A DNA stretch of 51,070 nucleotides from Chitinispirillum sp. Lineage in GTDB: Bacteria > Fibrobacterota > Chitinivibrionia > Chitinivibrionales > Chitinispirillaceae. Below the pieces are notes generated by a model. That model was not told where the DNA came from, did no database searches, and worked only from the letters and a program-made list of their open reading frames with translations. Positions 5,050 to 32,098 of this stretch are shown piece after piece. Each line of letters starts with the position of its first letter. Position 1 is the first letter of the stretch. The position numbers and the translations under genes are program-made. The stretch is from contig SKJJ01000050.1 in the NCBI GenBank assembly GCA_007115975.1, positions 1-51,070 on the forward strand, read 5' to 3'.

Positions 5050-5904
5050 TTATCTAACCCTGTAGTAGAGACCACGGGTGTGACTGAGCATTTCATATTC
5101 TGCAGAGTAGTTGATGAGCGACTCAGAAGCGCCCAGAAAAAGATGTCCATGGGGTCGGAGCATTGCAGCCATTCTCCTGAGAATGTCTTTTTTAAACTCA
5201 TCAGAAAAATAGATAAGTACATTTCTGCAAAAAATAATATCAGGCTTTCCGATAGGTGAAAAACTGTCCTGAAGGTTAAGTTTTTTAAACTGCACCATTC
5301 TTTTTATTTCATCCTTAACGATCCACACTTTACCATCTTGGATGAAGTAACGATTGAGCATTGTTTCGCCGAGTCCTCTGCTAATGGCAAATCCATCATA
5401 TCTTCCAGCCATGGCAATATAGAGAACGGTTGGAGAGATATCAGTTGCAATAATCTCGAAATGGTCCGCAGAGACCCCCGGATGAGTTCTTATGTGTTCA
5501 TATATAGTCATAGCAATGGAATAAGGTTCCTGACCGGTCGAACTGGCAGCACACCATATTACCATTTTTGATTTTTCACCGCTTTTAATCTGTTCACAAA
5601 ACCTCTTCACAAGTACCTCATCGAGTATTACAAAGGGGGATGTATCCCGAAACCACAGTGTTTCATTTGTAGTCATCGCATCAATAATCTTATCTCTAAG
5701 TTTTCCCGTTGTATCACTAACAGCTTTAGTGTGAAACTGGCGAAAATTGCTACACCCGCTTTCGACCATAAGGCTTGTGAGCCGTGTTTCAAGGAGATAT
5801 ATTTTCTCTTGTCTGATAGTTATACCACAGTATTTTTCAATGTAATCGCGCATGAGCTTGAATTCAGCAAAATCTATTGTAGCGTACTCTTCCATAGTAA
5901 TCAT
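5050..5904 (-). CDS. cheR: CheR chemoreceptor methyltransferase
   Basis: The 284-residue product has an N-terminal all-helical CheR domain (about 10-70) and an S-adenosylmethionine-dependent methyltransferase domain. The latter carries WCAASSTGQEPYSIAM (equivalent to the WSAACSTGEEPYS motif) and IIFCRNVLIYF. It would methylate glutamates on the three receptors encoded upstream, opposing CheB. Its ATG overlaps the stop of the preceding response regulator gene by four bases (ATGA at 5901-5904). A second Met at residue 4 is an alternative start. Confidence 0.92.
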   Translation of the reverse strand: MITMEEYATIDFAEFKLMRDYIEKYCGITIRQEKIYLLETRLTSLMVESGCSNFRQFHTKAVSDTTGKLRDKIIDAMTTNETLWFRDTSPFVILDEVLVKRFCEQIKSGEKSKMVIWCAASSTGQEPYSIAMTIYEHIRTHPGVSADHFEIIATDISPTVLYIAMAGRYDGFAISRGLGETMLNRYFIQDGKVWIVKDEIKRMVQFKKLNLQDSFSPIGKPDIIFCRNVLIYFSDEFKKDILRRMAAMLRPHGHLFLGASESLINYSAEYEMLSHTRGLYYRVR

Positions 5905-6500
5905 TTTCCGTTAGTCAAAGTTGTTAAGTTTTTGATTTTGTATTTCTTGAGAGCGTGTTGTATCTCATCAACTTTCTCGGAATCAGTCTTCATAGAGAGG
6001 ACTATTTTTTCGATGGTACGAGAAAAAGCAATGGTTGAATCAAGCTTTATCTCCATTTCACCAATGCACTTTTTGGCATTGTCCTCAATTGTTTCTTTAG
6101 CGAAGCGGTAATTTTCTGTTTCATTTTTACTTTGCAGAATCTCACGTATTAAAGAGATCTTTTCATAGAGGAGAAAAGTGTTGATCGGTTTTTCAAGATA
6201 ATCTCTTGCCCCCAACTTTATTGCTTCTACAGCAGAATCAACAGAAGCCCGACCGGTTATAACAATGACCTCAATACGCGGATGCTCCTTTTTAACCTTC
6301 TTTAGTATATCAAAACCGGAAACTTCGGGCATCAGGAGATCTGTTATAAGCAGGTCAATGCCCGATTTAGAGAGTAATTCATAAACCTTCTGGTAACTGT
6401 CAGTGACAATCAGAGTATCCCCTGGCATAATTACTTTTTTAAGTACATCTTTGTAGACATTGAGTAATAGGGGCTCATCATCAATACAGACAATATTCAT
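5901..6500 (-). CDS. Response regulator with a helical C-terminal extension, between cheB and cheR
   Basis: This 199-residue protein has an intact receiver domain at about 1-120: acidic pair D7-D8, phosphoacceptor D54 (LLITDLLMP), T82 and K104 (LEKPI). An 80-residue helical, charged tail follows, including a likely coiled coil from about 115 to 190. It lacks any DNA-binding, GGDEF, HD or PP2C output domain. Its position between cheB and cheR, overlapping cheR by four bases, ties it to the CheA pathway. It may be a second CheA target, a phosphate sink or a scaffold protein. The receiver call is firm; the role is inferred. Confidence 0.8.
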   Translation of the reverse strand: MNIVCIDDEPLLLNVYKDVLKKVIMPGDTLIVTDSYQKVYELLSKSGIDLLITDLLMPEVSGFDILKKVKKEHPRIEVIVITGRASVDSAVEAIKLGARDYLEKPINTFLLYEKISLIREILQSKNETENYRFAKETIEDNAKKCIGEMEIKLDSTIAFSRTIEKIVLSMKTDSEKVDEIQHALKKYKIKNLTTLTNGK

Positions 6501-6510
6501 ATCGTCTCCT

Positions 6511-7599
6511 TCAGAAAGTTTTTAATAGTTTGCATATTTCCAGATGCATACTCGCCAAATCAACAGACTTGTCGGACAAGCCTTCATCATCGATGGCTTT
6601 TGGCATTCCGTATACAACGCAACTCGAAGGGGACTGGGTTATGCTGTAGCCCCCCTTCTTTCTAATAGCTTTCACTCCTTTAAGCCCATCTGCCCCCATA
6701 CCTGTGAGAATAACCGACAGCACCCCTTTACCTTCATATACTGATGCAACAGACCTGAAGAGAACATCAACCGCAGGTTTACAGCTGTTTTCGGGTGGTC
6801 CATCATCCAGACCAATTACCACCGATTCATCTTTTACACGAACGGTCATATGTATTCCTCCCGGAGCAATATACACCGTCGCGGGTACGACCAGGTCTCC
6901 ATTTTGAGCTTCTCTTACAGCAAGGGCTGATTTTTTATCGAGGCTACAAGCCAGGGATTTGGTAAAACCCCTGGGCATATGTTGTACGAGAAGAATCGGT
7001 ACCCCAATCGTGGCCGGAAGTTTTGGTATCAGATAATTCAACGCTTCGGGCCCTCCGGTTGAGACCCCTATGGCGAGAACCGCAACCTTTGAGGGAATCG
7101 GGGCAGCCATTACAACAGGAGGCGGACTACTTGATCTGTTGGTTGGGAGGCCAGAACAAGAGGTGCTATTTTTTTCTGGCCGGTGCTGCCTTAAACCCAT
7201 GCGCACCCTAACTATTCTCAATACCCCTTCCAAGTCATTTTTCAGGGCTTGCCTGTTTGCTTGTATGCATGACCCCTCCGGCTTTTTTATAAAATCAAGA
7301 GCCCCCTTTTGCAGTGCTTCGATTGTGACCTCGGCATGTCTTCCGCTTATACCACTCATCATTACAAAGAGTGTTTCCGGATAGGATTCCTTAGCGACTT
7401 CAAGGATCTCAACACCGCTCATCCCCGGCATGTTAATATCACATAGAACAAGATTGATCTTATTTGCAGCCAATCTTTTCAGAGCGATGTCACCACTTGA
7501 CGCAGTACATATAACGTCTACATCGGAAAAACTACCAAGGGCTTCCGATGCAATTTTTCGATACATCACGGTATCATCTACTACCATTACCCGTATCAC
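6511..7599 (-). CDS. cheB: CheB protein-glutamate methylesterase
   Basis: The 362-residue protein has an N-terminal receiver (D8-D9, phosphoacceptor D54, K105-K106-P region), a Ser/Pro-rich linker at about 140-165 and a CheB catalytic domain. The catalytic domain has the serine in IGVSTGGPEAL (about S180), the histidine in LLVQHMPRG (about H207) and the aspartate in LTGMGADG. It removes methyl groups from receptors when phosphorylated by CheA. I choose the GTG at 7599 because AAGGAG sits seven bases upstream. A TTG at 7626 would add nine residues and overlap cheW. Confidence 0.92.
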   Translation of the reverse strand: MIRVMVVDDTVMYRKIASEALGSFSDVDVICTASSGDIALKRLAANKINLVLCDINMPGMSGVEILEVAKESYPETLFVMMSGISGRHAEVTIEALQKGALDFIKKPEGSCIQANRQALKNDLEGVLRIVRVRMGLRQHRPEKNSTSCSGLPTNRSSSPPPVVMAAPIPSKVAVLAIGVSTGGPEALNYLIPKLPATIGVPILLVQHMPRGFTKSLACSLDKKSALAVREAQNGDLVVPATVYIAPGGIHMTVRVKDESVVIGLDDGPPENSCKPAVDVLFRSVASVYEGKGVLSVILTGMGADGLKGVKAIRKKGGYSITQSPSSCVVYGMPKAIDDEGLSDKSVDLASMHLEICKLLKTF

Positions 7600-7610
7600 A
7601 AAGTTACTCC

Positions 7611-8117
7611 TTATACCTTGTAGCAATCAGCTGTTTGGTTACAATTTTCCATTGCAAGAACGGTCTGAACATTTAACACAACAAGCAGCTTGCCATCAAG
7701 CTTGACGATTCCCCTGATATAACGGCTATCGACACCATTTACATTTGCAGGAGCTGACTCCATTTCATCTTCATGCACGGTGACCATGTCGCCTATTCTG
7801 TCAACCATAAGGCCAACGATATCCTTTGCGGTTTTACTCACACCAAAGCCTTTGTCTCTTAACCGGTCAAGCTCCTCATCAGTTTTAAGTACTATACAAT
7901 TTTCACCTGAGACACCCGCTTTATCTTCAATACCAAGCTTTACTTTCAAATCAGCAACAGTTACAATTTGCCCCCGAAGATTCATTAGTCCTACGATGTA
8001 TACTGGTGAAGGGTCGACCTCTGTAACAACCATATTCTGGTTAATCTCTCTAACAAGCAAGACATCTATTCCAAAGTAATCGTTACCTAAAAAAAATGTA
8101 GCAAATTGTGCTGGCAT
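7611..8117 (-). CDS. cheW: CheW receptor-kinase coupling protein
   Basis: A single CheW domain spans the 168 residues (FFLGNDYFGIDVLLVREI at the start, then GLMNLRGQIVTVADL). CheW bridges chemoreceptors and CheA in the array. The ATG is preceded by a strong AAGGAGG. The gene lies between cheA and cheB; its stop falls in the region carrying the cheB ribosome site. CheA in this cluster appears to carry two further CheW-like domains, so this system has three such folds. Confidence 0.93.
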   Translation of the reverse strand: MPAQFATFFLGNDYFGIDVLLVREINQNMVVTEVDPSPVYIVGLMNLRGQIVTVADLKVKLGIEDKAGVSGENCIVLKTDEELDRLRDKGFGVSKTAKDIVGLMVDRIGDMVTVHEDEMESAPANVNGVDSRYIRGIVKLDGKLLVVLNVQTVLAMENCNQTADCYKV

Positions 8118-8157
8118 AGTTCCTCCTTATAGAGCTGATCTGATTGGTCTTTGTTGG

Positions 8158-10947
8158 TCATTTTATTGAAGCCTCAATAAGTGCAGGTACATCAAGTACC
8201 AAAGTAAGTCTATTATTGAGTACCTGGGAGCCCTTAACACCTATACCTTTTACATTCTCTTTATTGAGTGCAAGAACAGCCTGTACGGTATCTCGCACCT
8301 CGGCGGCAAAGAACCCCATTGGTCTTGGGGTATTTTTGGGAACGATCAAAAACAGAGAATCGCTGCTGCTGTGCTGTGGAGCAGAAAGAGACATGTAGTC
8401 ATCAAGCCGAACAATCTCCAGAGCTGAATCACCAGCCTGTATAAACTGCTTATCATTAACGAATTCAGTCTCCGATATTTTTCTTTTTTCTATTCTTGCA
8501 ATTTCATTAAGACCAATCGCCAGAGATTCCTTTCCACCGAGGTTAAAAATGAGCATTTCATGGAGGATTTTTGTTTCTTCCTGTTTATCTGAACTCTTCT
8601 TTACCGCCTTTTCCACATCATCAAAGCAAAGTCCGGCCAGTCTTGAGACCCCCCCTGCATCAATGATCATTGCAACTAATCCATCACCCATAATGGTTGA
8701 GCCAGCATAACAATAGCTATCTTTTAGAAATTCCGGGAGTGGCTTTACAACGATCTCTTCGCTTTCAAGTATATCATCGACGATAAGTCCGTAGTGACGT
8801 TTGTCCAACTTAAGAACAAGTATTTTCACTGCATTTTTCACCGATTGCCTTCTGTCCTTTGTGCCAGTCCTGTTTTCATTTACAGTGATTTGTCTCTCGT
8901 TGTCCTGCTGCTCAGGAGTACCTCTTCTGTCTGACTTTCTACTTCTTTTGTCAAATTGATGGTGCCCCGTCTTAGAGTCAATAAATGTTGGGGCAAGCCC
9001 GAGGACCTCTGATAACCGCACCAGAGGCAGAAGTTTACCACGAAGTCTCAGCACCTCAGAGTTACGGATTCTCTCAATCTTTGATGTCACATCTTTTGCT
9101 CTGATTCTTACGACCTCCTCAAGCCCAACCTGAGGCACGGCAAATCTTCTGCCCTCACAGGTAATAATCAGCGAGGGTACGATAGCCAGGGTCAGCGGTA
9201 GCTTAAGAGTAATTCTGGTACCGACTCCCACATCCGATTGAAGATCAATTGTTCCCCCAAGGCGTTCTATATTCGTTTTTACCACATCCATCCCGACACC
9301 TCTTCCGGAAACATCACTTACTTTTTCTGCAGTAGAGAAGCCTGCCGAAAAGATAAGCATCAGCACATCCTTTTGAGACATTTTTTCATACTGTTCCGGA
9401 GAGATAATACCTTTCTCCAACGCCTTTTCCCTGACTTTTTCCTGATCGATTCCCGCGCCATCATCTTTAACCTCGATAATCACCTTTCCGCCCTCATGGT
9501 AGGCCTTAAGCACTATTTGTCCTGTTTCTTTTTTGCCAGCCTTTATCCTCTGTTCAACAGATTCAATTCCATGATCAGCACAGTTTCTTATGAGATGAGT
9601 GAGCGGATCTGAAAGGAGCTCAATTATCGACTTGTCAAGCTCGACATCCTGACCGATTTGAATAAGATCGATCTTTTTACTCAGACTTTTTGCAAGATCC
9701 CGTATAATTCTGGGGAATTTGCTGAATACTACCGAAATAGGCTGCATTCTGGTCTGCATAATACTCTCCTGGAGAACAGAGGTTACCATGTCCACTTCCT
9801 GTACAATAGTATTTATACCCTGAATATCACTCAGTTTGAAATTCAGGGAAGAAAGCACCGCATCATGTAGTTCAGAGTGCAACTCATCCTGATCATTGAG
9901 AGTGTTTACAACACCTCTTGAATGCAACAACTTAGTAACCGATTTGACAACATCAGAAGCGACATTTTGGGATTCCTGCAGTCGGCAAAAAGGTCTTCCG
10001 ATAAACTGCAGCAGTTGATTTCTTGCCAAGACCAATTCTCCAGCATTGTTCATAAGAGAATTTAAGAGATTCACTTTTACTCGTAAGACATCCTCAAAAT
10101 GTGAACAGCTCTTTTTTTCGCTGCCTTCAGCCGTTGAGGACTCCTTAACAGCTTTATCACCCGCCACATCAGAATCACCCCTTTTTTGGTTGTACCGTTG
10201 TGCATCAATGCACTGTATTCTTTCGTTTTCCAGTTCAAGGCACCCACCGACAAGATCTGGTTCAAGTACCGTTGAGTAGAGAACCAGGATCTCTTGACAC
10301 TGCATTATTTCTTGATTTTTTAAAATCTTTTTTCGTTCGGGGATGGTTTGAATGATTTCACCATACTTTTCCCACCCATTAAATTTCTCACTGAGTTTGT
10401 CAGTAGTACAGTCTGTTGTCGGTACTACAGTTACCTGGTAGAGAAGCATGCCGTTTCTTTTCACCTTTTCAAGCACTTCGTCATTAAGCATGCTGAAGAC
10501 GTTCTCTTTGTCAACGGTGTAGTTTATAAGCGACGCATCTATTTGAGTCTTGACTTCTATATCCCCGCCGATAAAAGGAGTTAGTTTTTCAATTTCTCTG
10601 GAAACCGATACATTCTCACTATTGCTTACATCATTTAAAAGAGTGCTTAATTTGTCGATACCCATCAGAAGAGCATCCGTCATTTCCGGGGTAACCTTTG
10701 TCTCCTTATCCCGTACTCTTGCCATTACATTTTCCATGGCATGAGCCAGATTTACAATTGTTTCGATTCCAAAAAACCCGAATCCTCCCTTTATGCTGTG
10801 AACAGCCCTAAACACTCTGTTGACAAGTTCGGTGGAAACCTTGCAGCCTTTCTGTTCAAGTTCCAGAAGATCCGGTTCAATGGCATCAAGGTGATCTCTT
10901 GATTCTATAATCAACTCATTAAGTATTTCTCGATCTGTTTCTGACAT
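8158..10947 (-). CDS. cheA: CheA chemotaxis histidine kinase, long form with a second C-terminal CheW-like domain
   Basis: At 929 residues this is longer than the usual 650-700. In order I see: HPt domain with the phosphorylatable H50 (RAVHSIKGG); a middle region of about 130-280 that may include a divergent CheY-binding domain; a dimerization/HATPase core (N box LIRNCADHGIES, then DDGAGID and GRGVGMDVV); and a CheW-like regulatory domain. That regulatory domain is interrupted by a roughly 45-residue hydrophilic, Arg/Gln-rich insert. A second CheW-like domain occupies the last 140 residues (MLIFNLGGKESLAIGLNEI to NRLTLVLDVPALIEASIK). The ATG at 10947 has AAGGA seven bases upstream. The upstream ATG at 10956 overlaps that site and is less likely. 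Confidence 0.92.
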   Translation of the reverse strand: MSETDREILNELIIESRDHLDAIEPDLLELEQKGCKVSTELVNRVFRAVHSIKGGFGFFGIETIVNLAHAMENVMARVRDKETKVTPEMTDALLMGIDKLSTLLNDVSNSENVSVSREIEKLTPFIGGDIEVKTQIDASLINYTVDKENVFSMLNDEVLEKVKRNGMLLYQVTVVPTTDCTTDKLSEKFNGWEKYGEIIQTIPERKKILKNQEIMQCQEILVLYSTVLEPDLVGGCLELENERIQCIDAQRYNQKRGDSDVAGDKAVKESSTAEGSEKKSCSHFEDVLRVKVNLLNSLMNNAGELVLARNQLLQFIGRPFCRLQESQNVASDVVKSVTKLLHSRGVVNTLNDQDELHSELHDAVLSSLNFKLSDIQGINTIVQEVDMVTSVLQESIMQTRMQPISVVFSKFPRIIRDLAKSLSKKIDLIQIGQDVELDKSIIELLSDPLTHLIRNCADHGIESVEQRIKAGKKETGQIVLKAYHEGGKVIIEVKDDGAGIDQEKVREKALEKGIISPEQYEKMSQKDVLMLIFSAGFSTAEKVSDVSGRGVGMDVVKTNIERLGGTIDLQSDVGVGTRITLKLPLTLAIVPSLIITCEGRRFAVPQVGLEEVVRIRAKDVTSKIERIRNSEVLRLRGKLLPLVRLSEVLGLAPTFIDSKTGHHQFDKRSRKSDRRGTPEQQDNERQITVNENRTGTKDRRQSVKNAVKILVLKLDKRHYGLIVDDILESEEIVVKPLPEFLKDSYCYAGSTIMGDGLVAMIIDAGGVSRLAGLCFDDVEKAVKKSSDKQEETKILHEMLIFNLGGKESLAIGLNEIARIEKRKISETEFVNDKQFIQAGDSALEIVRLDDYMSLSAPQHSSSDSLFLIVPKNTPRPMGFFAAEVRDTVQAVLALNKENVKGIGVKGSQVLNNRLTLVLDVPALIEASIK

Positions 10948-11035
10948 CCGTTGCATCCTTTTTTTGACCCTTTTACCATGGCTGCATAATTCTTGTGCAG
11001 TCCCTTTTGATCATATTTGTATTGCTGTTATTCTA

Positions 11036-12805
11036 CTACACCACAAACTGCCCCAAAACGCCCTTAAGAGTTTTGGAGAGTTGTGCCAGTTCCTCAGCAC
11101 TTGATTTCACTTGTGCGATTCCCTTTGCTGTAGCTGCAACAGCATCATTGACACCTGAGATGGAGTAAGCCACCTCAGAGAGCCCCGTAGCTGATTGGGA
11201 TACATTTTTTGAAACTTGCTGCGCACCAGCACTCACCCCACTCACATTCTGTGCTATCTCATTTATTGTTGCACTCTGCTCCTCGACAGCACTTACAATG
11301 GTCTGAGAAATGGTATTAACTTCCTCTATTACCTTAGATACCGCTTCAATCGCTTTAACCGACGACACAGCATTTCTCTGAATTTCTTCAATCTGCGTTT
11401 CTATTTCAAGGGTGGCCTGCGCAGTCTGCTTTGCAAGCTCCTTTACTTCATTTGCTACAACGGTAAACCCTTTTCCGGCGTCACCGGCTGAGGCGGCCTC
11501 AATAGTGGCATTGAGCGCAAGGAGGTTTGTCTGATCAGCGATATCATTTATCACCTTTACTACTTTTCCTATGGATTTTGCAGAACCACCCAGTTTATTC
11601 ATTACCTCTTTGCTGCTCTTTGCATATGTATCAGCTTCTTGCGCTATCTGCAGCTCCTGCTGACAATTACGAGACACTTCATTGAGTGATGCACTCATCT
11701 CTTCTATGGCTGTAGCTACAGAGTTTGTCGAAGTGGACATCCCCTCGGCTGAGGAGGAGATTGAGTTGATGTTGGTTGTAGCGAGTTCTGTTGAGGAAGC
11801 TACAGCTGATGACTTTGTGGTCATTTCTTGAGCATTGGCAGCAATTTGCCTTGATGTTAAGGAGAGTTCTTCTGCAGATGTTGCTAAAGAAGAAGCCTCA
11901 TCCTTGAGCACTATTATTATTTTTTGTATTTTTTCAACAAATACATTAAACCACCTTGCAAGCTCTCCAATCTCATCTTTAGATTTTATGTTGATTCTCC
12001 TGGTAAGATCACCTTCTCCTTCGGCAATATTTCTGAGACTGGCTGTAACACTGTTTATCTGAGCGGTTATTGTATTTCCAATGAAATAGGATGCCACAAC
12101 AACAAGCAATATACCTAGAAGACCAACCATCATAAGGCGCGAAATGCTTCTTCTCACAACAGCACCCCTATTCTCTGCATGAGCCCTCATAATATCATCA
12201 ATATCGTCGGTGTACGCCCCGGTACCCACTACCATGTCAAATCCCTGATGGTACAGGGAGTATCCTCTTTTAGGAAGCGGCACACTTTCCCCCAGCTTAG
12301 GAAACCAATAGTCGGTAAATCCACCACCAGCCATGGCTTCACGGCGTATATCCTGTATCAAAAGGTTACCTTTTGCATCCTTTAGGTCATTTCTGTTGGT
12401 ACCTTCAACATCAGTACGTCCATAAAGAGCAAGATTAACCCCTTCTTTTGTGTCTGCCCAAAAGTAACCGTCAGTCAGATCGCTCTGCTTTAAGCCATAA
12501 CGAACATCTCTAATAAGATGTATTGCAACTTCACGTGCAGTTTCAGACTCAAGGACCCCCTGACCAGCCAGTGCTTCCAGTTTGTCCACCATAGTGTAGG
12601 CAGTTTCCACCTGAAATCGTATGTATTGGTCAAAAGATTCCCGTAGTTGATGATCTAGCTGCTCCAGTATAGTCTGACGGTCCTGCTGCATAAACTGAAT
12701 CAGATACAACAGTATTGCAGAAACGGTGATTACACCCACGGTAAGAAATGAACCCAGAATCTTTTTTCTGATACTCACTGAGTTCCATAAAAAAGTTACC
12801 AACAT
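11036..12805 (-). CDS. Methyl-accepting chemotaxis protein, single-Cache sensor
   Basis: The 589-residue receptor has an N-terminal transmembrane helix (about 14-36) and a periplasmic sCache_2-type sensor (about 40-195) with [28 protein letters not shown] and [13 protein letters not shown] second TM helix (about 210-232), a HAMP domain ending near GEGDLTRRI and a long cytoplasmic coiled coil follow. The hairpin tip reads [20 protein letters not shown]. sCache_2 domains usually bind small organic acids; the ligand here is unknown. There is no CheR-docking pentapeptide at the C-terminus. The ATG at 12805 is preceded by GGGAGG with a six-base gap; a GTG six bases earlier overlaps that site. Confidence 0.92.
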
Positions 12806-12963
12806 AATCACCCTCCCACCCTGACAAGTAATTTAGGTTTGCAAAGACCATAATAGCTTCAACGCACAAAACCGGCATTTCAGCGATAATTTAAAAATTG
12901 CATTGAGAGCCTTTGATGCAACTACATTTTTACGACTCCCTGCTTTCTTTTGATCAGTTGAAT

Positions 12964-14385
12964 TTATCCTGAAAAGTCCGACAAAAGGTCCTTAAGACTC
13001 TCCGAAAGCTTCGTCAGTTCCTCTGCACTCGCTTTAACCTGTACGATTTCCTTTGCAGTATCGGCCACTGCACTATTTACACCTGCAATAGTGGAAGACA
13101 CCTCAGAGAGCCCTGTGGCGGATTCAGCTACATTTCTCGATACCTCCTGCGCCCCGGAGCTCACACCAGCCACACTTCGAGCCAACTCATTAATCGTGGC
13201 ACTCTGCTCTTCTACAGCACTTACGATAGTCTGTGAGATGGTATTTACCTCCTCTATTACATTGGACACAGAATTGATAGCCTTTACTGCTGATTCGGTA
13301 TTAGACTGCATCTCTTCTATCTGATTCTCTATCTCATCTGTGGCCTGCGCAGTCTGCTTGGCAAGCTCCTTTACCTCGTTTGCCACAACGGCAAAACCTT
13401 TTCCAGCTTCTCCCGCAGATGCAGCTTCAATGGTAGCATTCAGTGCAAGCAGGTTGGTCTGGTCGGCAATATCATTTATTACTTCTACCACTTTACCAAT
13501 TGATTTTGCAGCTATACCAAGCTTTTGCATCACTTCGTTACTGCTTTTTGCATACATGTTCGCCTCTCCTGCAATCTGCAGCTCTTTTTGACAATTGCGG
13601 GAAACTTCATTCAGTGACGAACTCATCTCCTCTATGGCAGTGGCAACAGAATCCGCTCCTGAGGACATCTCCTCTGCAGCAGAGGAGATCGAATTGATAT
13701 TGGTGGTAGCCTGTTCCGTTGAGGACGCTACGGTGGATGTCTGTGTACTCATTTCTTCGGTATTGGTGGCAATTTGGGTACTTATTCTTAGAAGTTCACT
13801 GGCGGCGACAGCTACAGTGTCGGCAGTTTTTGAAAGCCGTTTGGTTGTCTCAACATTGGTGACCACCTCCACATGACCTATCCGCCTGCCAATGTCATCA
13901 TAGATCCAATTGGTATCCACCTGCATATACATGCTTTGAGCACCTGGTATCTCCTGATTATAGAAGGTACGAGGTTTGTTGTTTCGTAAGCATGTTATGC
14001 CACAGTTTTCTGTATGACAAATATCCGCCTTCCAGTTTGAACAGTGTTTACCAACAACATTATTTTTATTTAAGTTACGCCCGGAAAGCAATTTTTCGGT
14101 GGTCTTATTAATAAACTTCCAGTGCATCTTCATATCGGTGGTTGTAACCGGTTGCTCCAGTGCATCAAGTGAGCCTTCGAGATAGAACATTTGATATCTA
14201 AAACGATAAACTATATACAGCAGACTGGCACACATAAGAATCAATACTCCAGCAACCAACTTGGTTCTTACTAGCTGCATTTCAAGAGGTATGTCGCTAT
14301 ATAGCACTACAATCATGTATATGCCGACACACCCAAGTACAAATGTTGTTATACCAAATTTTGCCACAAATGGAATTTTACTCAT
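12964..14385 (-). CDS. Methyl-accepting chemotaxis protein with a cysteine-rich cytoplasmic PAS-like domain
   Basis: The 473-residue receptor has two closely spaced TM helices (about 8-30 and 42-62) and almost no periplasmic loop, so sensing is cytoplasmic or membrane-level. A PAS-like domain (about 75-180) contains C115, C123, C128 and C132 (C-x7-C-x4-C-x3-C). It is followed by a signalling coiled coil with the tip [20 protein letters not shown]. There is no HAMP domain. The four cysteines suggest a metal or Fe-S centre and a redox or gas signal, which is inference. The ATG at 14385 lies six bases after AAGGAG. The ATG at 14391 abuts the Shine-Dalgarno. Confidence 0.9.
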
Positions 14386-14602
14386 TGCCATCTCCTTAAT
14401 GGATTTTTTTACTTCTTTTTATGATAGTACTGTTTAATTACCTCAACTGCAAGATTCCTGTTACCCAGCTACTCTTTTATTCAATACTTTTACTATACAA
14501 AGCGATGAATTCAATCCTTTACAGCCAGCGATAGGACCAAAACCGTTAGTTTACTCTCACCCAGAACCATATTCAAAACCTTTTTTTACAGAGGCTTATT
14601 CA
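14386..14602 (-). other. Spacer between two receptor genes, with a possible internal promoter
   Basis: This 217-base gap lies between the dCache receptor stop and the next receptor start. On the minus strand it contains TTGAAT followed 11 bases later by TATAGTAAAA. A very similar TTGAAT, 12 bases, TATGATAAAA arrangement occurs upstream of the dCache receptor. The spacing is too short for a standard sigma-70 promoter. No gene is visible. Confidence 0.25.
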
Positions 14603-16573
14603 CTACACCCGAAACTGCCCTAAAAGTTTTTTCAGAGAAACCGATAGTTTGGCCAATTGATCAGCACTTGCTGTTACCTGTACAATCCCCTTTGCGGTAT
14701 CAGCCACGGACCTGTTTACACCCGCAATAGTTGCGGACACCTCGGTGAGTCCGGAGGCCGATTCCGACACATTTTTAGACACTTCCTGTGCACCGGTATT
14801 TAACCCGCTTATGTTCTGTGCTATTTCATTTATGGTTGCACTCTGCTGCTCAACTGCACTTACTATGGTCGCGGATATGGTGTTAACCTCCTCTATTACC
14901 CTGGATACCGCCTCAATTGCCTTTACCGCAGATTCTGTGTTGGACTGCATCTCCTCTATCTGATCTTCTATTTTCTGAGTGGCCGTTGCAGTCTGCTTTG
15001 CAAGCTCCTTTACTTCATTTGCCACAACGGCAAACCCTTTTCCGGCATCACCGGCCGAAGCAGCTTCGATGGTTGCATTGAGAGCCAGAAGGTTTGTCTG
15101 ATCCGCAATGTCATTTATCACACCCACTACTTTACCTATGGATTTTGCAGAGATACCCAGCTTGTGCATCACCTCTTTACTGCTTATTGCATAGTTGTTC
15201 GCCTCTGCCGCTATCTGGAGCTCCTGCTGGCAGTTACGAGACACCTCATTCAGTGATACGCTCATCTCTTCAATTGCTGTGGCAACCGAGTTTGTCGATG
15301 AGGACATCTCTTCAGCGGCTGCTGAGATCGAGTTAACATTGATGGTTGCCTGCTCCGTTGCTGAAGCTACCGTTGAAGTCTGCATCTTCATCTCTTGAGC
15401 ATTGGAGGCGATCTGTGTTGAGACTGCTGAAAGTTCAGTAGCAGAAGTTGCGACAGTTTCGGCGCTACCGGTAATTGAGGCGATCAGTCCCTGGAGCTTT
15501 TCAATAAACCCGTTGAAATAACCTGCCAATTCACCAATCTCATCTTTGGCCGGGACTTCAAGCCGTCTGGTCAGATCCCCTTCACCTTCGGAAATATCTC
15601 TGAGCATGTCGGTAGTTCTTTTTATGGGATGTATAATTGACTTTGCAAAAAGAAAAGACAACCCCGCTCCGGCACATACAAGAATCAGAGAAGCCAGAAA
15701 TATCCCTAAACGAAGTGAGTATATCCCACGAAAGGTGTCGTCGTGGTATGATCCAACCGCAAATGACCAGTCCGTACCGGGTATAGGTTCATAATAGAAT
15801 GAACGAACCGAACCCATAAACGGATACTCATCAAAACCGGCCCCACCCGCTACCATTCGTGCAAACATCCCTGAAAGGCGGGCAAATTCTGTGTTAGTTT
15901 TGCCCTCCTCAAGGAAATTGCGTTGTTCAAGCACGAAATCCCTGTTCTCATGAGCAATAAGTGCACCGCTGCCGTCAATTATGTAGGAATATCCTCTCTC
16001 CCCGTACCCTATCTGGTCGGTGATTTCACTTAGCCATGAAGCATCAGCCCTGACAAGCAGCACCGCAACAGGATCTTCATCAGAATTCTTTATTGGTGCG
16101 GCAATAATCATCACCGGCGTGTTGGTTACCCGGGAAATCAAAACATCTGAACTATTCGTAACCCCCTGCATTGCTTTAATGAAATAGCCTCTGTCACCAA
16201 GCGAAGCTGTTGTTCCATCGGGATACATTGCATGCCCATTCTTATGAATAATGCCCATACCCATATATCCCAGTCGCTCCACAGCCTCTTCCATCACCCC
16301 TTTTTGCTGATCCCAATCCATGCTTCGCACTGCACTCGACCGGGCAATCTCGTTTACAATACCCATGTGCCTGTCAATCTCACTTCGAACTATCATCACC
16401 CCGTACCTGGACATCTGGGGAATAGTCGCAAGTACCTGATTTCGAACACTGCGGTGACTTTGAGTGTAGGAGATGATCCCGACACCGATAGAGACGATGA
16501 CCAGCAAAAGAACTGTTCCCCCTATCAGTTTTTTGCCAAAGCCAATATTCTCTATTCCAGCTGTTATACTCAC
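14603..16573 (-). CDS. Methyl-accepting chemotaxis protein, double-Cache sensor
   Basis: The 656-residue receptor has TM1 at about 14-36 and a large periplasmic dCache_1-type sensor (about 40-290) with [37 protein letters not shown] and a WSFAVGSY strand. TM2 is at about 295-318. A HAMP domain (ending GEGDLTRRL) and a signalling coiled coil with the same tip as its two neighbours follow. dCache_1 domains commonly sense amino acids or organic acids. Translation begins at GTG 16573 with only a weak GGGCGGG upstream. It is the first gene of the chemotaxis cluster as transcribed, so the main promoter should lie just upstream. Confidence 0.92.
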
Positions 16574-24863: not shown

Positions 24864-26894
24864 TTACAAATACTTCTCCAAAACAGCCGACAACTTCCCT
24901 GAGTCAAGTGGTTTCTCAAGATAATCACTCATGCCACAGTCAAAACAGTTCTGTTTTTCAGTCTTTTCGTTTGAAGCGCTCAAAGCAACGATCTTTGTCG
25001 GGGCATCCGCTTGATCTGCAATTTTAAAAATCTCTTTTGCTGCTTCAAACCCATTCATTCCCGGCATCTGTATATCCATGAATACCAGGTGGGGCTTATG
25101 TTCAGTATACATTTCGACAGCCTCTTGCCCGTTTTTGGCTTCAAGCACCTTGGATTGCACAAGGATCTTTGAAATGACCGTTTTAATCAGAGTGTTATTC
25201 AGTGGCACATCATCAACGACCAGAATCGTTACTCTTTCACTGCTGATGTATTCTGCGTCCATGCCAGCGTTCAGGGGATCATCCGACCCGGCTTCGATTT
25301 GATGATTTGCAATTTTTTTGAGATACCCGATCATTTCCTCGGTCCGCACTGGCTTTACCAACTTGAGCGCTATTCCCAGATCCACACACTCCTCATGCAG
25401 CAGATTGTCATCACAGGAGCTGTAGAGCAAAATTACCGGCTGCCTTTCTGAAGGCGAGTTGCGTATTTTCCTAATCTCTGTGATTGTTTCTATGCCGTTA
25501 AGTCCGGGCATGTCATAGTCGATAATGGCGATATCAAACGCAAGGCTGTTTTTGATCACCTCCAGGGCTTCATAGCCGCTCTCTGCAGTTACCGATTCTA
25601 TTCCCCACTCTTTAAATCGGTGCTGAAGAATGGTTCTGTTACCAGCATTATCATCAACAATCAGAACCCTTGCAATATTGGGCAGCTTTTGAGAAACATT
25701 CCGCTGATTCTTGAGTGCCGGTCTCTTAATAGTAAATGAGAATACACTTCCCCTGTTTTTTTCTGAGGCAAGTATGATTTGACTGCCCATTTTACGGGCT
25801 AGATTTTTTGAAATTGTTAATCCCAAACCGGTGCCGCCATATTTTCTGGTGATGGAGATGTCTGCCTGAGAGAAAGGCTTGAAGAGTTTTTTCTGTTCCT
25901 CAGCAGAGATCCCGATACCTGTGTCTCTTACCGAAAATGTAAAGAGGACGTCATCTTGTTTTTCAGAGACCCATTGTGCACTCAAAGAGAGTTCAATTTC
26001 CCCTTTTTTTTCGGTGAATTTAATTGCATTGCTCAGAAGATTTACCAGTATCTGTTTGATTCGTACAGGATCAACAACAGTAACCCTGGGCACAGAGGTG
26101 TCGATATTCAAAAGAAGTTCGATCTTTTTTGATGCAGCACTGTATTTCACAATATCAGCGGTCTCTTCCACCAGCTGAATTATGTTTGTCTCTATCTCAT
26201 CAAGCTCAAGTCTTCCTGCCTCGATCTTTGAAAAGTCAAGGATATCATTGATTATCTCCAGAAGCGTTTTTGCTGATGTAATTGCATTTTCGATATACTG
26301 TTTCTGTATAGGGGATAATTTTGTCTTTGCAATAAGTTCTGTAAAACCGATGACACCGTTTAACGGGGTCCTTATTTCATGACTCATTGCCGAGAGAAAA
26401 TCGGATTTTGCCCTGTTGGCCTCTTCTGCCTCCTCTTTTGCCCTGTTGAGTTCCTCTGTCTTCTTTTCAAGCTGATTATAGGCATCCCTGAGCAGTGTCT
26501 CCTTCTTTATCAGTTCTCTGTGTGCCTTTGAAACCGAAGCGGACAAACCGGACATTTGCTCGTAAAGGATTGCAGTCTCAAGGACATCTGTCTCACCAAT
26601 GAAGAGTAACCCTTGGGGTGTTTTGAAAACCCGTGCATTGAATGACAAATTGCTGGAAGGATCTTTCTTAAGAGTTACAATTCCTCTAAACACATTCTGC
26701 TGATCACTCTTTTTAAGATCCTCAAAGACGGGATTAATGAAGCAGGCGCACAGGTTTTTCTCGCTGTAGTTGAGGATTCGTCCGTATCCCCTGTTAGAGG
26801 ACTGCAAGTTGCCTTCGCAGTCGGTTGAAAAAACAACGGTGTTTTCGCTTTGAGCGAGCAGTTCTTTGAAATTGATCTCTCTTTCGGGGTTCAT
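24864..26894 (-). CDS. Hybrid sensor histidine kinase with two receiver domains
   Basis: The 676-residue soluble kinase has an N-terminal PAS-like domain (about 10-105) with TVVFSTDCEGNLQSSN and a coiled coil (about 115-165). HisKA carries the phosphorylated histidine H172 (SHEIRTPLNG). HATPase_c has DTGIGI and GGTGLGL motifs. Two receivers follow: VLIVDDNAG with IIDYDMPG, and ILVVDDVP with VFMDIQMPG. There is no TM segment. I choose the ATG at 26894; an upstream TTG at 26954 would overlap the preceding gene. It lies downstream of a B12-binding protein and a 143-residue partner, which probably feed signals to it. No DNA-binding output is encoded here. Confidence 0.9.
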   Translation of the reverse strand: MNPEREINFKELLAQSENTVVFSTDCEGNLQSSNRGYGRILNYSEKNLCACFINPVFEDLKKSDQQNVFRGIVTLKKDPSSNLSFNARVFKTPQGLLFIGETDVLETAILYEQMSGLSASVSKAHRELIKKETLLRDAYNQLEKKTEELNRAKEEAEEANRAKSDFLSAMSHEIRTPLNGVIGFTELIAKTKLSPIQKQYIENAITSAKTLLEIINDILDFSKIEAGRLELDEIETNIIQLVEETADIVKYSAASKKIELLLNIDTSVPRVTVVDPVRIKQILVNLLSNAIKFTEKKGEIELSLSAQWVSEKQDDVLFTFSVRDTGIGISAEEQKKLFKPFSQADISITRKYGGTGLGLTISKNLARKMGSQIILASEKNRGSVFSFTIKRPALKNQRNVSQKLPNIARVLIVDDNAGNRTILQHRFKEWGIESVTAESGYEALEVIKNSLAFDIAIIDYDMPGLNGIETITEIRKIRNSPSERQPVILLYSSCDDNLLHEECVDLGIALKLVKPVRTEEMIGYLKKIANHQIEAGSDDPLNAGMDAEYISSERVTILVVDDVPLNNTLIKTVISKILVQSKVLEAKNGQEAVEMYTEHKPHLVFMDIQMPGMNGFEAAKEIFKIADQADAPTKIVALSASNEKTEKQNCFDCGMSDYLEKPLDSGKLSAVLEKYL

Positions 26895-26911
26895 CTTTTC
26901 GCCCGCCAATT

Positions 26912-27343
26912 TCAGGATTGTGCAGAAAAGAGAGGTATGTTGGTGATCAACCAATTATACAAATGAGATATTTCCTTATAGGAATTATCAGAAATGTTTT
27001 CATTGTAGAGCGCTATCCAGGTATTAATCTGGGCAATCCAGTAGCAGTCATTAAATCCTCTGCTTTTATATACCCTGAACACCCACAAAACAGTATCAAC
27101 AAGTACTTCCGGATCATATTGTGTGAGGATGGATACAATGAATTTGAAATGATTGGTATGATTGTCTTTCATGAGATCTGCGTTTTTACTCCCCCCGATA
27201 AGTTCAAGGCAGTCTTCCCTTGACAACATTCTTTCATTTACTTCAGCGATTATTTTGTCACCCTTCAGTTTCAACTCTTTTAAGGTTGCATCGGTGACCG
27301 GGGGTATTTTAGAAGCGCTTTCAAGAAGAACAGTTCGGTTCAT
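26912..27343 (-). CDS. Small helical protein between the B12-binding sensor and the histidine kinase
   Basis: The 143-residue protein has no signal peptide and is predicted mostly helical. A conserved-looking core runs from LMKDNHTNHFKFIVSIL to LVDTVLWVFRVYKSRGF and YWIAQINTWIALYNE, rich in His, Trp and aromatic residues. I believe similar proteins occur beside B12-binding domain proteins and kinases in other anaerobes, but I cannot name the family. It overlaps the B12-binding gene by four bases (ATGA) and ends 17 bases before the kinase start, so all three are one operon. It may link the cobalamin sensor to the kinase PAS domain. Confidence 0.7.
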   Translation of the reverse strand: MNRTVLLESASKIPPVTDATLKELKLKGDKIIAEVNERMLSREDCLELIGGSKNADLMKDNHTNHFKFIVSILTQYDPEVLVDTVLWVFRVYKSRGFNDCYWIAQINTWIALYNENISDNSYKEISHLYNWLITNIPLFSAQS

Positions 27344-27978
27344 GATAACTCCTTTAAATACTCTTCCACTTGAAATATGTCCCTTAAAAACAGGACATTA
27401 TCAAACTTAGAAGCTAACAGAGGTCCTGATTTCCCAAGCCCCTGCCCACCAATAAGTATAGGAAGATCAGTTGCTTTTCGAATCGCTTCCAGTTCATCCA
27501 TAAAAACATCAACATTGAAATAGACGCTTAACGAAAGACCTATTGCATCGGGATTCACATTTTTACAAAACTCAACAAGATCCTTTACAGGCGTATTCGC
27601 ACCCAGGAAATAACTGTTCCAGCCGGACTTTTCAAATGTATCTGCAACCATCCTGCATCCAACCTGATGCTCCTCATTCTGCACACTTGCCAAAACAACG
27701 CCCTTATTGTTTCGCCTCGGTGCAATAAAATCCGAAAAAATCTCATTCATCAAGCTTTCAATCAGTGCTGTAGCCATGTGCTCAACAGCCACACTTATTC
27801 TGTGGTACTCCCACTCCCGGCCGACTTTATAGAGAACGGGTTTGAATAGATTTTCATATACAGGAGTCAGATCCTTTTCTCTGGACAAGGTATACTGTGT
27901 AATCCTTCGGCATTCCATTGTATTGCCGCAGACAAGAGCCTTATAGAAGGGTTCTAACGCGATCTCTGCACGGTCCAT
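27340..27978 (-). CDS. Cobalamin-binding sensor protein with CarH-type motif, no DNA-binding domain
   Basis: The 212-residue protein has a four-helix B12-binding cap (about 1-85) and a Rossmann-type B12-binding domain (about 92-212). The cap carries W56-x9-E66-H67, the motif that in CarH contacts the upper face of adenosylcobalamin. The Rossmann domain carries E102-x-H104-x-x-G107, the lower-ligand histidine, then SLS near 149 and GGQG at 177-180. The protein lacks the MerR-type HTH of CarH. Operon position before a hybrid histidine kinase suggests it signals through protein contact instead. AAGGTG precedes the ATG. Corrinoid methyltransferase subunits are the main alternative, but the EH motif favours a sensor. 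Confidence 0.85.
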   Translation of the reverse strand: MDRAEIALEPFYKALVCGNTMECRRITQYTLSREKDLTPVYENLFKPVLYKVGREWEYHRISVAVEHMATALIESLMNEIFSDFIAPRRNNKGVVLASVQNEEHQVGCRMVADTFEKSGWNSYFLGANTPVKDLVEFCKNVNPDAIGLSLSVYFNVDVFMDELEAIRKATDLPILIGGQGLGKSGPLLASKFDNVLFLRDIFQVEEYLKELS

Positions 27979-29173: not shown

Positions 29174-30679
29174 TCACCCCTCACATTTCAAGCCATACTT
29201 CTCAACCAGCAATCTCAAACTCTTACGGTCAATGTCAAGAATCTTTGCTGCGTTGGTGAGATTCCCCGGAGACCGCTCCAGTGCATAACTGACCATCTCC
29301 CTGTCCACCGCCTCCCGTGCCTGGCGAAGCGTGGTGTAATTGGGGGAAGCCCCCCCGAGTCCCAGTTCGGTTTTGCCAATAACCGTGCCGGTGGCAGTTA
29401 AGACTGCACGCTGCACCTTATTCTGTATTTCACGCACATTGCCCGGCCATCCGTATACTAAAATCGCCTTTTCTGAATCCTTGCTCAAAGAGAGGCTGCG
29501 CTTTCCAAACTTCTCGCTGTACAAACAGAGAAAAAACCTGGCAAGAAGCAGTGCATCCTCTCCCCGCTGCCGAACAGAGGGAATGGTAACGGGAAACACG
29601 TTGAGCCGGTAAAAAAGATCCTTCCTGAAACGTGCCTGTTCCACCGCCTGTTCCAGATCCACATTGGTGGCTGCAACAATGCGTACATCCACCTTTATCG
29701 GTTTTGATGAGCCCACACGCATTATCTCCCCCTCCTGAAGCGCTCGGAGGAACTGTGCCTGTACGGCCAGCGGAAGTTCCCCTATCTCATCGAGAAAAAG
29801 TGTCCCGCCGCCAGCCTCCTCAAAGTAGCCCTTTCTTGCGGACACCGCTCCTGTAAAGGCCCCCTTTTCATGGCCAAAAAGCTGGCTCTCCATAAGATTC
29901 TCCGGAATGGCGCCACAGTTAACGGCCAGAAAGTTTTTTTCTGCCCGGTTACTAAGGTCGTGAATAATACGGGCCAGACGCTCCTTTCCCGTACCGGTTT
30001 CACCAAAGAGCAAGATGGGAACATCTGCCGGGGCCCCCTGCTCGATAAGGCCCAGACACTGGCGGAATGCATCACTGCCGAAAACAAGGTCATCAAAGCG
30101 TTTCTGCTCCATCCTGTTTTTCAGCTCCTCTATGGTGGCATCACGCTCCTGGAGAAGTTTGGATTTACCTATCAGAGTCGACATCAGTTTTGACAGAAGC
30201 TTAAAACGATCCAGATCATTGAGGGTCAAAGGGTGGCGGTCCGTTCTGCTGTCAAGATACAGAAACACTTCTTTGTTTAAAAACAGAGCCTCATCCGCAG
30301 CGGTGAGCAGAGTGCACAAAACTGAGCGGATATCATTTCTGCAAATCGATTCTGATACATTCAGCTGCTCATCCTCAATGGTGTCGGATATAAGAAGCGG
30401 CTCCTTTTTCTCACGTACCAGATTTATTGCCGTGGTACTGTATGAGGAGCCATCTTCATTGCCGCTCTTTTCAACAATTTCCATGTTGCCCGTTGAGCTC
30501 TGTGCAATTAAAAGCCCCCGTTCACAGTGAAGCACTTTTGTGCAAAGCTCAAGCCCCTGACGAAGGAGGGTCAGGATGTCGGCTTCCTGGGCCATATCGG
30601 CTGTAAGGCGCAGAGCAAGGCTGACCATATCCGCTTGTCGGCTCTCAAGGTCTCTTTCATGCTGCTTGTTTTGGTCCAT
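29174..30679 (-). CDS. Sigma-54-dependent transcriptional activator with a GAF domain
   Basis: The 501-residue protein has a GAF-like sensor (about 25-175) and a complete AAA+ activator core: Walker A GETGTGKE at 226-233, the sigma-54 contact GAFTGA at 273-278, Walker B LFLDEIG at 294-300, and an R-finger region. A Fis-type HTH follows (about 461-496, LTNAAKILDIDRKSLRLLV). There is no receiver domain. It directly follows a Ser/Thr kinase gene (18 bases), so phosphorylation by that kinase or ligand binding to the GAF domain may control it. Target promoters of the -24/-12 type were not identified in this window. Confidence 0.9.
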   Translation of the reverse strand: MDQNKQHERDLESRQADMVSLALRLTADMAQEADILTLLRQGLELCTKVLHCERGLLIAQSSTGNMEIVEKSGNEDGSSYSTTAINLVREKKEPLLISDTIEDEQLNVSESICRNDIRSVLCTLLTAADEALFLNKEVFLYLDSRTDRHPLTLNDLDRFKLLSKLMSTLIGKSKLLQERDATIEELKNRMEQKRFDDLVFGSDAFRQCLGLIEQGAPADVPILLFGETGTGKERLARIIHDLSNRAEKNFLAVNCGAIPENLMESQLFGHEKGAFTGAVSARKGYFEEAGGGTLFLDEIGELPLAVQAQFLRALQEGEIMRVGSSKPIKVDVRIVAATNVDLEQAVEQARFRKDLFYRLNVFPVTIPSVRQRGEDALLLARFFLCLYSEKFGKRSLSLSKDSEKAILVYGWPGNVREIQNKVQRAVLTATGTVIGKTELGLGGASPNYTTLRQAREAVDREMVSYALERSPGNLTNAAKILDIDRKSLRLLVEKYGLKCEG

Positions 30680-30697
30680 GTAGTAATCCTGCAGTCT

Positions 30698-32065
30698 CTA
30701 AAGGTTCCATTGCCATTTCTGATATGGCATAATATTTATCTCTTTGGAAAGTACGGTTCCGTCACTGCGATAGACGTTGAGATCGTGAAGCCCGGGAGTA
30801 ACGGTAAACAGGGTCTCATCCCCGTCTGCGGAGACACTCATGGTATCGCCGTTTAGCACAAACGTATCACCTTCAAGGGTGCCATTTACAATCACAACTC
30901 CGGTCTTTAGTTCAGACACCCCCTGTACAAGTGGCATCGGCTCATTATCATCTGCCTGTCCGGCATCCGATCTGCCAAGAGTTTTTGCCAGATTAGTGCT
31001 TAGCATCTGCTCCTGCAGCAGTAAGAAGGGTTCTTCGGATACCACTTGTGTGGAGGAGTAGTACGATAGTAAATAAGCTGCGGCTGTAACTGCCAAAATC
31101 GCGCCGGCAGCTCCAAGGCATATTTTCTTCACCACTTTTCTGCGGTGAAAAAAGGAGAGAGGAGAGGGCTGCTTGTTGCCCGGTTGCAAAATCACGGGCA
31201 GAACACTGTTTTTTGCATCACCGCCAAACATCTCCCGGATTTTTACCGTACCGCCACTGCCGGTGCCCCGAACAATCTCAGAAAGAGTATCGTGTACCTC
31301 TTCCATGGACGGACGACCTGAGCGCTGCTTATTGAGACATTTCATCGCAAGCGCGGCAACCGGTTCGTAGCACTTTTGCGCAACAGCCGGAGCCGGCGGG
31401 TTCTCATTGAGCACCTTATATGAAATCTCACCAATCGATTCTCCTGTAAAGGGAGGTGAGCCGCTGAGCACCTCATATAGTACACACCCAAGAGAGTAGG
31501 TATCGGCACGGTTATCGATATCAGCCGGTGAAATCATGACTTCGGGTGCCATATAGGCCAACGTTCCTATGGCGGAGCTGGTGGATTGGGTGGTCATCTC
31601 TTTTTGAAGCAGTGCAAGGCCGAAATCTGCCAGCTTTATCTGAGCACTCTTTGAGAGAAAAATATTGGCCGGTTTTATATCTCTGTGGATGATGTTGTGT
31701 TTATGGGCATAGCTTAGAGCACAGCAGACCCTTTCCATCACCAGCACCGATGACTCAAGCGGGATATTCTCCCTGAGGGCCGTATCAAAACTTACCCCAT
31801 CGATAAACTCCATCACTATGTAGTAACTTCCCGAAAAGTGGGCGTAGTCATAAATGGAGATTATATTGTCGTGACTCAGTGTTGCCATTGCCTGTGCTTC
31901 ACGCCCGAAACGGATAATCTCATTGCGGCTCTGCGCCCGGTGTGGGCAGAGGGATTTGATAGCTACGGTTCGCCCGAGAGATTTCTGGCGGGCACGGTAA
32001 ACCGAACCGAACCCGCCGGCTCCGATCATGACAAGGTCTTCGTAGTCATTGATTGAAAAAGCCAT
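30698..32065 (-). CDS. Membrane-anchored Ser/Thr protein kinase
   Basis: The 455-residue Hanks-type kinase has the Gly-rich loop GAGGFGSVY (15-23), ATP-binding K37, an HRD catalytic loop (IHRDIKPANIF), the DFG motif (ADFGLA), and an activation segment ending GTLAYMAPE. A Ser/Thr-rich linker, one TM helix at about 305-325 (AAGAILAVTAAAYLL) and an extracytoplasmic domain of about 110 residues resembling a PEGA or beta-sandwich module follow. The ATG at 32065 has GGAG five bases upstream; a GTG 15 bases earlier would overlap that site. It lies between a TPR lipoprotein and the sigma-54 activator, a layout that suggests an envelope-to-promoter pathway. Confidence 0.9.
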   Translation of the reverse strand: MAFSINDYEDLVMIGAGGFGSVYRARQKSLGRTVAIKSLCPHRAQSRNEIIRFGREAQAMATLSHDNIISIYDYAHFSGSYYIVMEFIDGVSFDTALRENIPLESSVLVMERVCCALSYAHKHNIIHRDIKPANIFLSKSAQIKLADFGLALLQKEMTTQSTSSAIGTLAYMAPEVMISPADIDNRADTYSLGCVLYEVLSGSPPFTGESIGEISYKVLNENPPAPAVAQKCYEPVAALAMKCLNKQRSGRPSMEEVHDTLSEIVRGTGSGGTVKIREMFGGDAKNSVLPVILQPGNKQPSPLSFFHRRKVVKKICLGAAGAILAVTAAAYLLSYYSSTQVVSEEPFLLLQEQMLSTNLAKTLGRSDAGQADDNEPMPLVQGVSELKTGVVIVNGTLEGDTFVLNGDTMSVSADGDETLFTVTPGLHDLNVYRSDGTVLSKEINIMPYQKWQWNL

Positions 32066-32098
32066 CGGTTCTCCAAACACTGCAGGTTAACTGTTTTT

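Follow-up and report, generated by a model that had tools for sequence, protein, structure and literature searches.

A cobalamin-binding protein, a globin-fold partner and a hybrid histidine kinase that probably form one signalling module related to photocobilin photoreceptors

How does a cobalamin-binding protein that keeps the residues of a known light sensor, and carries no DNA-binding domain, pass on what it senses? Experimental knowledge of B12-based photoreception comes mainly from transcription factors, together with a few fused photocobilins. We address this question for a locus of Chitinispirillum sp. (contig SKJJ01000050.1, assembly GCA_007115975.1), which we analysed within a window of 51,070 nt, i.e. 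the whole stretch of DNA under study, and in which such a protein is encoded next to a small partner and a hybrid histidine kinase. Because many anaerobic bacteria have the same set of genes, in another order or as fusions, the three proteins probably form one signalling machine, related to photocobilin photoreceptors and apparently lacking their bile-pigment chromophore. Photoglobin-B12 pairs were predicted in 2022 to be light-sensing bundles (as cited in PMC10979010 and PMC11796333), and the characterisation of photocobilins followed in 2024 (PMC10979010). In the literature that we found, coupling of B12 photoreceptors to two-component kinases is predicted, with no demonstration, and there is no description of a split, inverted-order and bilin-free branch with a PAS-like adaptor, or of its conserved kinase operon, although the 2022 photoglobin survey may already include this subfamily.

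The trio occupies the minus strand within positions 24864-27978 of the window and runs from a 212-aa cobalamin-binding sensor protein (27340-27978) through a 143-aa globin-fold partner (26912-27343) to the hybrid histidine kinase (24864-26894). The stop codon of the B12 gene and the ATG of the 143-aa gene overlap by 4 nt. The kinase frame opens at a TTG at 26954, which would give 696 aa, and contains an in-frame ATG at 26894, which gives 676 aa. The latter, 17 nt past the small gene, is the likelier start, so that the small gene and the kinase gene nearly touch and do not overlap. This agrees with the close packing described in an earlier note on this DNA, and so does the remark that the output is encoded elsewhere, since the kinase gene is not followed by one for a response regulator with a DNA-binding output and the next operon is a convergent one for RND efflux. 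A promoter and terminator scan gave nothing above chance level. Other signalling genes are found in the window. Just upstream of the trio and on the same strand (29174-32080) there are genes for a Sigma54 activator, which matches GAF weakly, and for a Ser/Thr protein kinase, with a DUF2807 gene intervening; a chemotaxis cluster (CheR, CheA and an MCP with dCache) lies on the minus strand at 5050-16573, and an adenylate/guanylate cyclase fused to a 7TMR-DISM receptor at 48704-50815.

The B12 protein consists of a B12-binding_2 helical cap (PF02607, 41.7 bits for a cut-off of 23) and a B12-binding Rossmann domain (PF02310, 53.7 bits for a cut-off of 32.1), which are all that Pfam recognises in its 212 residues, and the absence of an HTH that had been claimed for it therefore stands. 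It displays the motifs G53xxW56, W56-x9-E66-H67, E102xH104 and G126xxxP130. The earlier note had placed W56, E66, H67 and H104 correctly, and an alignment with TtCarH equates these CarH-site residues with W131, E141, H142 and H177. In the 77 B12 proteins of the family, G53, W56, E66, H67 and E102 are invariant and H104 is missing once (76/77). Since W56, E66 and H67 remain fixed in homologues as low as 27% identical, sequence comparison confirms that the motif is more than chance. The W/E-H/ExH residues bind AdoCbl in CarH (PMC11796333) and in photocobilins (PMC10979010). The position of CarH His132 is taken by Glu57, with 73 Glu, four Gln and never a His among the 77 homologues, and thus bis-His ligation of the CarH type, which photocobilins also lack, is not to be expected. 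Of the signature proposed for light-responsive cobalamin-binding domains (Yu et al. 2024, PMC11796333), GxxW, EH and GxxxP are present, and GxxH is replaced by NEEH (NxxH), so the protein falls outside the strict signature.

Structural comparison points to photocobilins as the closest relatives. We used the AlphaFold model (pLDDT 94, pTM 0.88) of a fused globin-B12 relative (locus L005), which comes from the window's own order. Its B12 half matches photocobilin 8j2w best (Z 26.8, rmsd 1.8 A over 206 residues), followed by 8j2y and 8jbs and then, at a Z of about 21, by CarH (5c8a, Z 20.9) and AerR (7te2, Z 20.7, rmsd 3.4). The previous description of the B12 protein as CarH-like thus holds for the residues of the AdoCbl site, but the nearest structure, as judged from the fused relative, is a photocobilin and not CarH. 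A tree of B12 domains left most of the branching without resolution, and a single-sequence scan of genome contigs with the B12 protein returned no match.

The identity of the 143-aa partner is less apparent from its sequence, which belongs to no Pfam family; a profile of the small domain searched against PDB sequences found nothing up to an E of 10. A match to ThiS in NCBIfam (21.4 of the 80 bits required) is spurious because no other member of the family has it. The AF2 model, with a pLDDT of 97.6, adopts a globin fold, and its best fold matches in Foldseek/VIA are smURFP (Z 13.6), globin-coupled sensors (about 13; Z 13.2 for DosC, 4zvb) and phycobiliproteins (about 13), values that may be background for helical proteins, in a match list that here consists almost entirely of globins. 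The globin domain of photocobilin 8j2w is matched with a Z of 11.2. Lacking sequence matches in either Pfam or the PDB, we base the globin assignment on the fold, and it is from the predicted structure that we call the partner a globin-fold protein. A link to the globins of photocobilins and photoglobins is suggested by an hhalign comparison of the profiles, which gave a weak match (score 25.3, E 0.0015, probability 17%), with a score reached by 1 of 400 column shuffles.

The strongest argument that these genes work together is their recurrence. A profile and alignment search of genome contigs with the small protein identified 113 places, 80 of which were kept, and together with loci from the window's phylum and from Ilyobacter these made 83 non-redundant loci. 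In 77 of the 83, the small gene either adjoins a same-family B12 gene, usually at a few nt, or is fused to one, and a kinase lies within the same gene run in at least 64. In eight loci the order is permuted to B12-kinase-small gene, and six, L005 among them, encode fusions with the small domain N-terminal to the B12 domain. The trio, whose conservation across genomes the earlier note had proposed to check, is therefore conserved across phyla, with changes of gene order and with fusions. Taken together, the adjacency, the altered order and the fusions provide strong evidence, at the level of gene context, that the B12 gene, the small gene and the kinase are one functional unit. A motif-free search of 345 Desulfobacterota genomes identified 14 further carriers, several of them with fusions. 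The distribution is sporadic: the B12 gene is found in only 4 of 167 genomes of the window's phylum. In one of these four, a genome of the same family as the window (G004), a B12 gene and a hybrid kinase occur and the small gene was not detected, which implies that the globin is not always needed.

The kinase has the architecture previously ascribed to it. Pfam finds HisKA (26214-26411, minus strand like all that follow), with the H-box SHEIRTP, HATPase_c (25722-26072) and two Response_reg domains. The first receiver (25323-25670, boundaries set by motif) contains IIDYDMPG and KLVKPV, and the second (24879-25226), which is the best Response_reg stretch in Pfam, contains FMDIQMPG and LEKPLD, so that both acceptor Asp and both Lys are present. 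More informative is the N-terminal input domain (26442-26879), which is PAS-like (PAS_9 at 7e-5 in one member) and continues into a conserved coiled-coil-like stretch. A profile made from the N-terminal ~155 residues of 37 other trio kinases, with that of the window held out, recognises the latter at 2e-22 and the kinase of the globin-less G004 locus at 2e-23. In fused loci it also detects PAS-only effectors (1.5e-8 to 2.7e-5) as well as, with weak scores, diguanylate cyclases (6e-4 and 3e-3), and it has no match among about 63 other kinases in the same flanks. By these profile matches, the PAS-like/coil domain stays constant as outputs vary, and it is likely to be the docking site for the B12-globin complex. 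In many Bacteroidota loci the trio is followed by a fourth gene for a ~398-aa REC-HisKA-HATPase protein (L022:6738-7931; also L060, L077, L049, L035 and L061) with a conserved N-terminal receiver, IDDEVEITKSLxRQFRRKYxV, which is possibly the next relay step.

From the gene layout, the conservation of the set, its residues and predicted folds and the shared effector domain, all of which were computed, we infer a ligand, contacts, a stimulus and a direction of signalling for the trio. The best match of the fused relative's B12 part, together with the globin fold of the partner, makes the module look like a split, inverted-order relative of photoglobins and photocobilins, and we consider it reasonably probable that these genes specify a photocobilin-type sensory unit, split into a cobalamin and a globin protein and coupled to a dedicated kinase. 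The 212-aa protein, judging by motif and fold, would bind AdoCbl base-off/His-on via H104 and hold its adenosyl group under W56 and E66-H67, and the globin-fold subunit would pack on it like the globin domain of photocobilins. The complex would engage the PAS-like/coiled-coil N terminus of the kinase and set its autophosphorylation state. AdoCbl would be bound in the dark. Once the adenosyl group is lost, either photolysed by visible light or because AdoCbl is in low supply, the E66-H67 helix would move. This movement may alter the oligomer or dimer, a change that the globin and the PAS-like domain would relay so that the kinase flips, and phosphate would leave via the two receivers to an unlinked Hpt or response regulator. 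Photocobilins offer a precedent: in their light state they are monomers with a shifted E71-H72 helix, and in one that has His in place of the bilin Asp, illumination makes a coupled diguanylate cyclase more than 10-fold more active (PMC10979010). The route from a B12 signal to a two-receiver kinase that the earlier note had envisaged is supported on genomic grounds, and is refined in that photocobilins are nearer than CarH and the partner has a globin fold. We are evenly balanced on a wider proposal, namely that this is a bilin-free split photocobilin relative, widespread in anaerobes, that acts as an AdoCbl photoreceptor or AdoCbl sensor and whose globin has lost its bilin and relays to a PAS-like adaptor attachable to histidine kinases, diguanylate cyclases and other outputs.

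Whether the globin carries a chromophore of its own decides between several readings. In SasPcob, Trp296 touches the corrin and the bilin D ring, and Asp270 holds biliverdin. In the register of the weak hhalign match, these positions correspond to W87 and N61, whose 26-residue spacing is the same in SasPcob, AbPcob (which has His at the Asp270 position) and Streptomyces photocobilins. Trp occupies position 87 in 98% of the small-protein family, so the corrin contact appears to be retained and the bilin contact lost. N61, H62 and H65 belonged to the fixed motif of the first homologue search, but position 61 is also Asn in all well-matched homologues from the motif-free search that span it; a single weak, divergent match (L114) differs. 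In addition, heme oxygenase (PF01126, the one heme-degrading family looked for) is missing from this genome, and of 28 other genomes with the module only one has it. On these two grounds the globin is predicted to be without bilin, and it probably works as a structural or relay subunit. That it instead carries a bilin, or some product of anaerobic heme breakdown, making the module a two-chromophore photocobilin with a red-light response, is in our estimation quite unlikely, even though smURFP and phycobiliproteins are closest in fold and the Trp296 equivalent is kept. The globin-coupled oxygen sensors among the best fold matches would fit a heme-binding subunit for the sensing of gas or redox, with the gain set by the B12 protein, a reading that we regard as very unlikely. 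Heme globin-coupled sensors have a conserved proximal (F8) histidine. The only family-wide His residues are H62 and H65, both of them requirements of the search motif; heme in the small globin is unlikely because neither survives in the motif-free homologues L103 and L104, and no conserved His occurs in the next helix (residues 78-94). The divergent match mentioned above (L114, genome G265) is a globin-B12 fusion whose B12 half has no lower His ligand and whose globin has no N61-H62 core; it is perhaps a cobalamin-free derivative.

The stimulus is a separate matter. The genome can make AdoCbl, since CobA/BtuR is present; a PduO-type adenosyltransferase is absent. A light-exposed life is not evident, because photolyase is missing here and over the cut-off in only 12 of 31 module-bearing genomes. 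This absence, the anaerobic or sediment origin of many carriers (by record names) and the finding that the AbDPcob cyclase is less active with AdoCbl than as apoprotein (PMC10979010) would suit a sensor of cobalamin status, in which the B12 protein reports AdoCbl availability, the kinase adjusts metabolism and light has no natural role. We think this doubtful, although worth keeping in mind, and light the more likely cue: the W/E-H/ExH set is common to CarH and photocobilins, where the EH is tied to adenosyl-dependent oligomerisation, an Rfam search of the window revealed no cobalamin riboswitch or any other family, and no corrinoid gene is among the window neighbours of the trio. The same two Pfam domains are found in corrinoid methyltransferase subunits, the role named in the earlier note as a possible refutation, and the B12 protein does score weakly with such families, but far under the curated NCBIfam cut-offs (MtgC, 29 of 370 bits; MtbC, 28 of 350; pyl_corrinoid, 24.7 of 215.3). 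There is no methyltransferase gene beside the trio, the neighbourhood is conserved, and W56 is a Trp, as in SAerR and CarH, where MetH has Phe (PMC9144470). It is thus extremely unlikely that the B12 protein is such a subunit in an accidental neighbourhood.

Comparison with the closest known systems highlights similarities and differences. Photocobilins (SasPcob, 8j2w/8j2x; AbDPcob, 8j2y; Zhang et al. 2024, PMC10979010) share the CarH-type B12 domain with W-EH and E/DxH motifs, as well as a globin-fold domain, and their outputs include a diguanylate cyclase. However, their globin is C-terminal in one chain, whereas here it is a separate gene and in relatives is fused at the other end; the biliverdin contact of SasPcob is Asn here, in genomes mostly without heme oxygenase; and the usual output is a histidine kinase that has its own PAS-like adaptor. 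The photoglobin family (Schneider et al. 2022), as far as it is described in the papers that cite it, likewise consists of non-heme globins tied to B12-binding and signalling domains, and it shares in the weak profile link reported above. CarH/LitR (Thermus thermophilus, 5c8a and 5c8d) have the GxxW-x9-EH, ExH and GxxxP residues of the AdoCbl site in common with the module, but act by DNA binding through an N-terminal MerR-type HTH, in place of which the module has a partner globin and a kinase. AerR from Rhodobacter capsulatus is also an HTH-less B12 protein that works through a partner, but this partner is the repressor CrtJ, the ligand is hydroxocobalamin (PMC9144470) and the fold similarity is lower than with photocobilin. 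In BBAG-2 and pre-2 clusters (Rockwell et al. 2023, PMC10151467), a globin gene adjoins a gene for a predicted B12-binding protein, as here, but these globins bind biliverdin and the clusters include a bilin reductase, for which there is no gene beside the trio.

The module consists of three small proteins open to testing and shows that the globin can exist as a subunit of its own; its PAS-like/coil domain, a natural plug used with different outputs, would be useful for optogenetics. It also raises the question of why sediment-dwelling anaerobes that lack heme oxygenase retain a globin of the phycobilin type next to a B12 domain of the light-sensor type. Our survey also uncovered pairings with the photocobilin-type Asp or in other gene contexts. 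Azospirillum thermophilum encodes a globin-B12 fusion (L093:2066-4360) with an N-terminal globin and the photocobilin-type Asp near a HAMP sensor kinase, a second pairing of that kind. Of the Streptomyces plasmid photocobilins, two are flanked by the genes of a PP2C phosphatase on one side and a STAS protein on the other (L094 and L098), and one lies beside gas-vesicle genes (L095).
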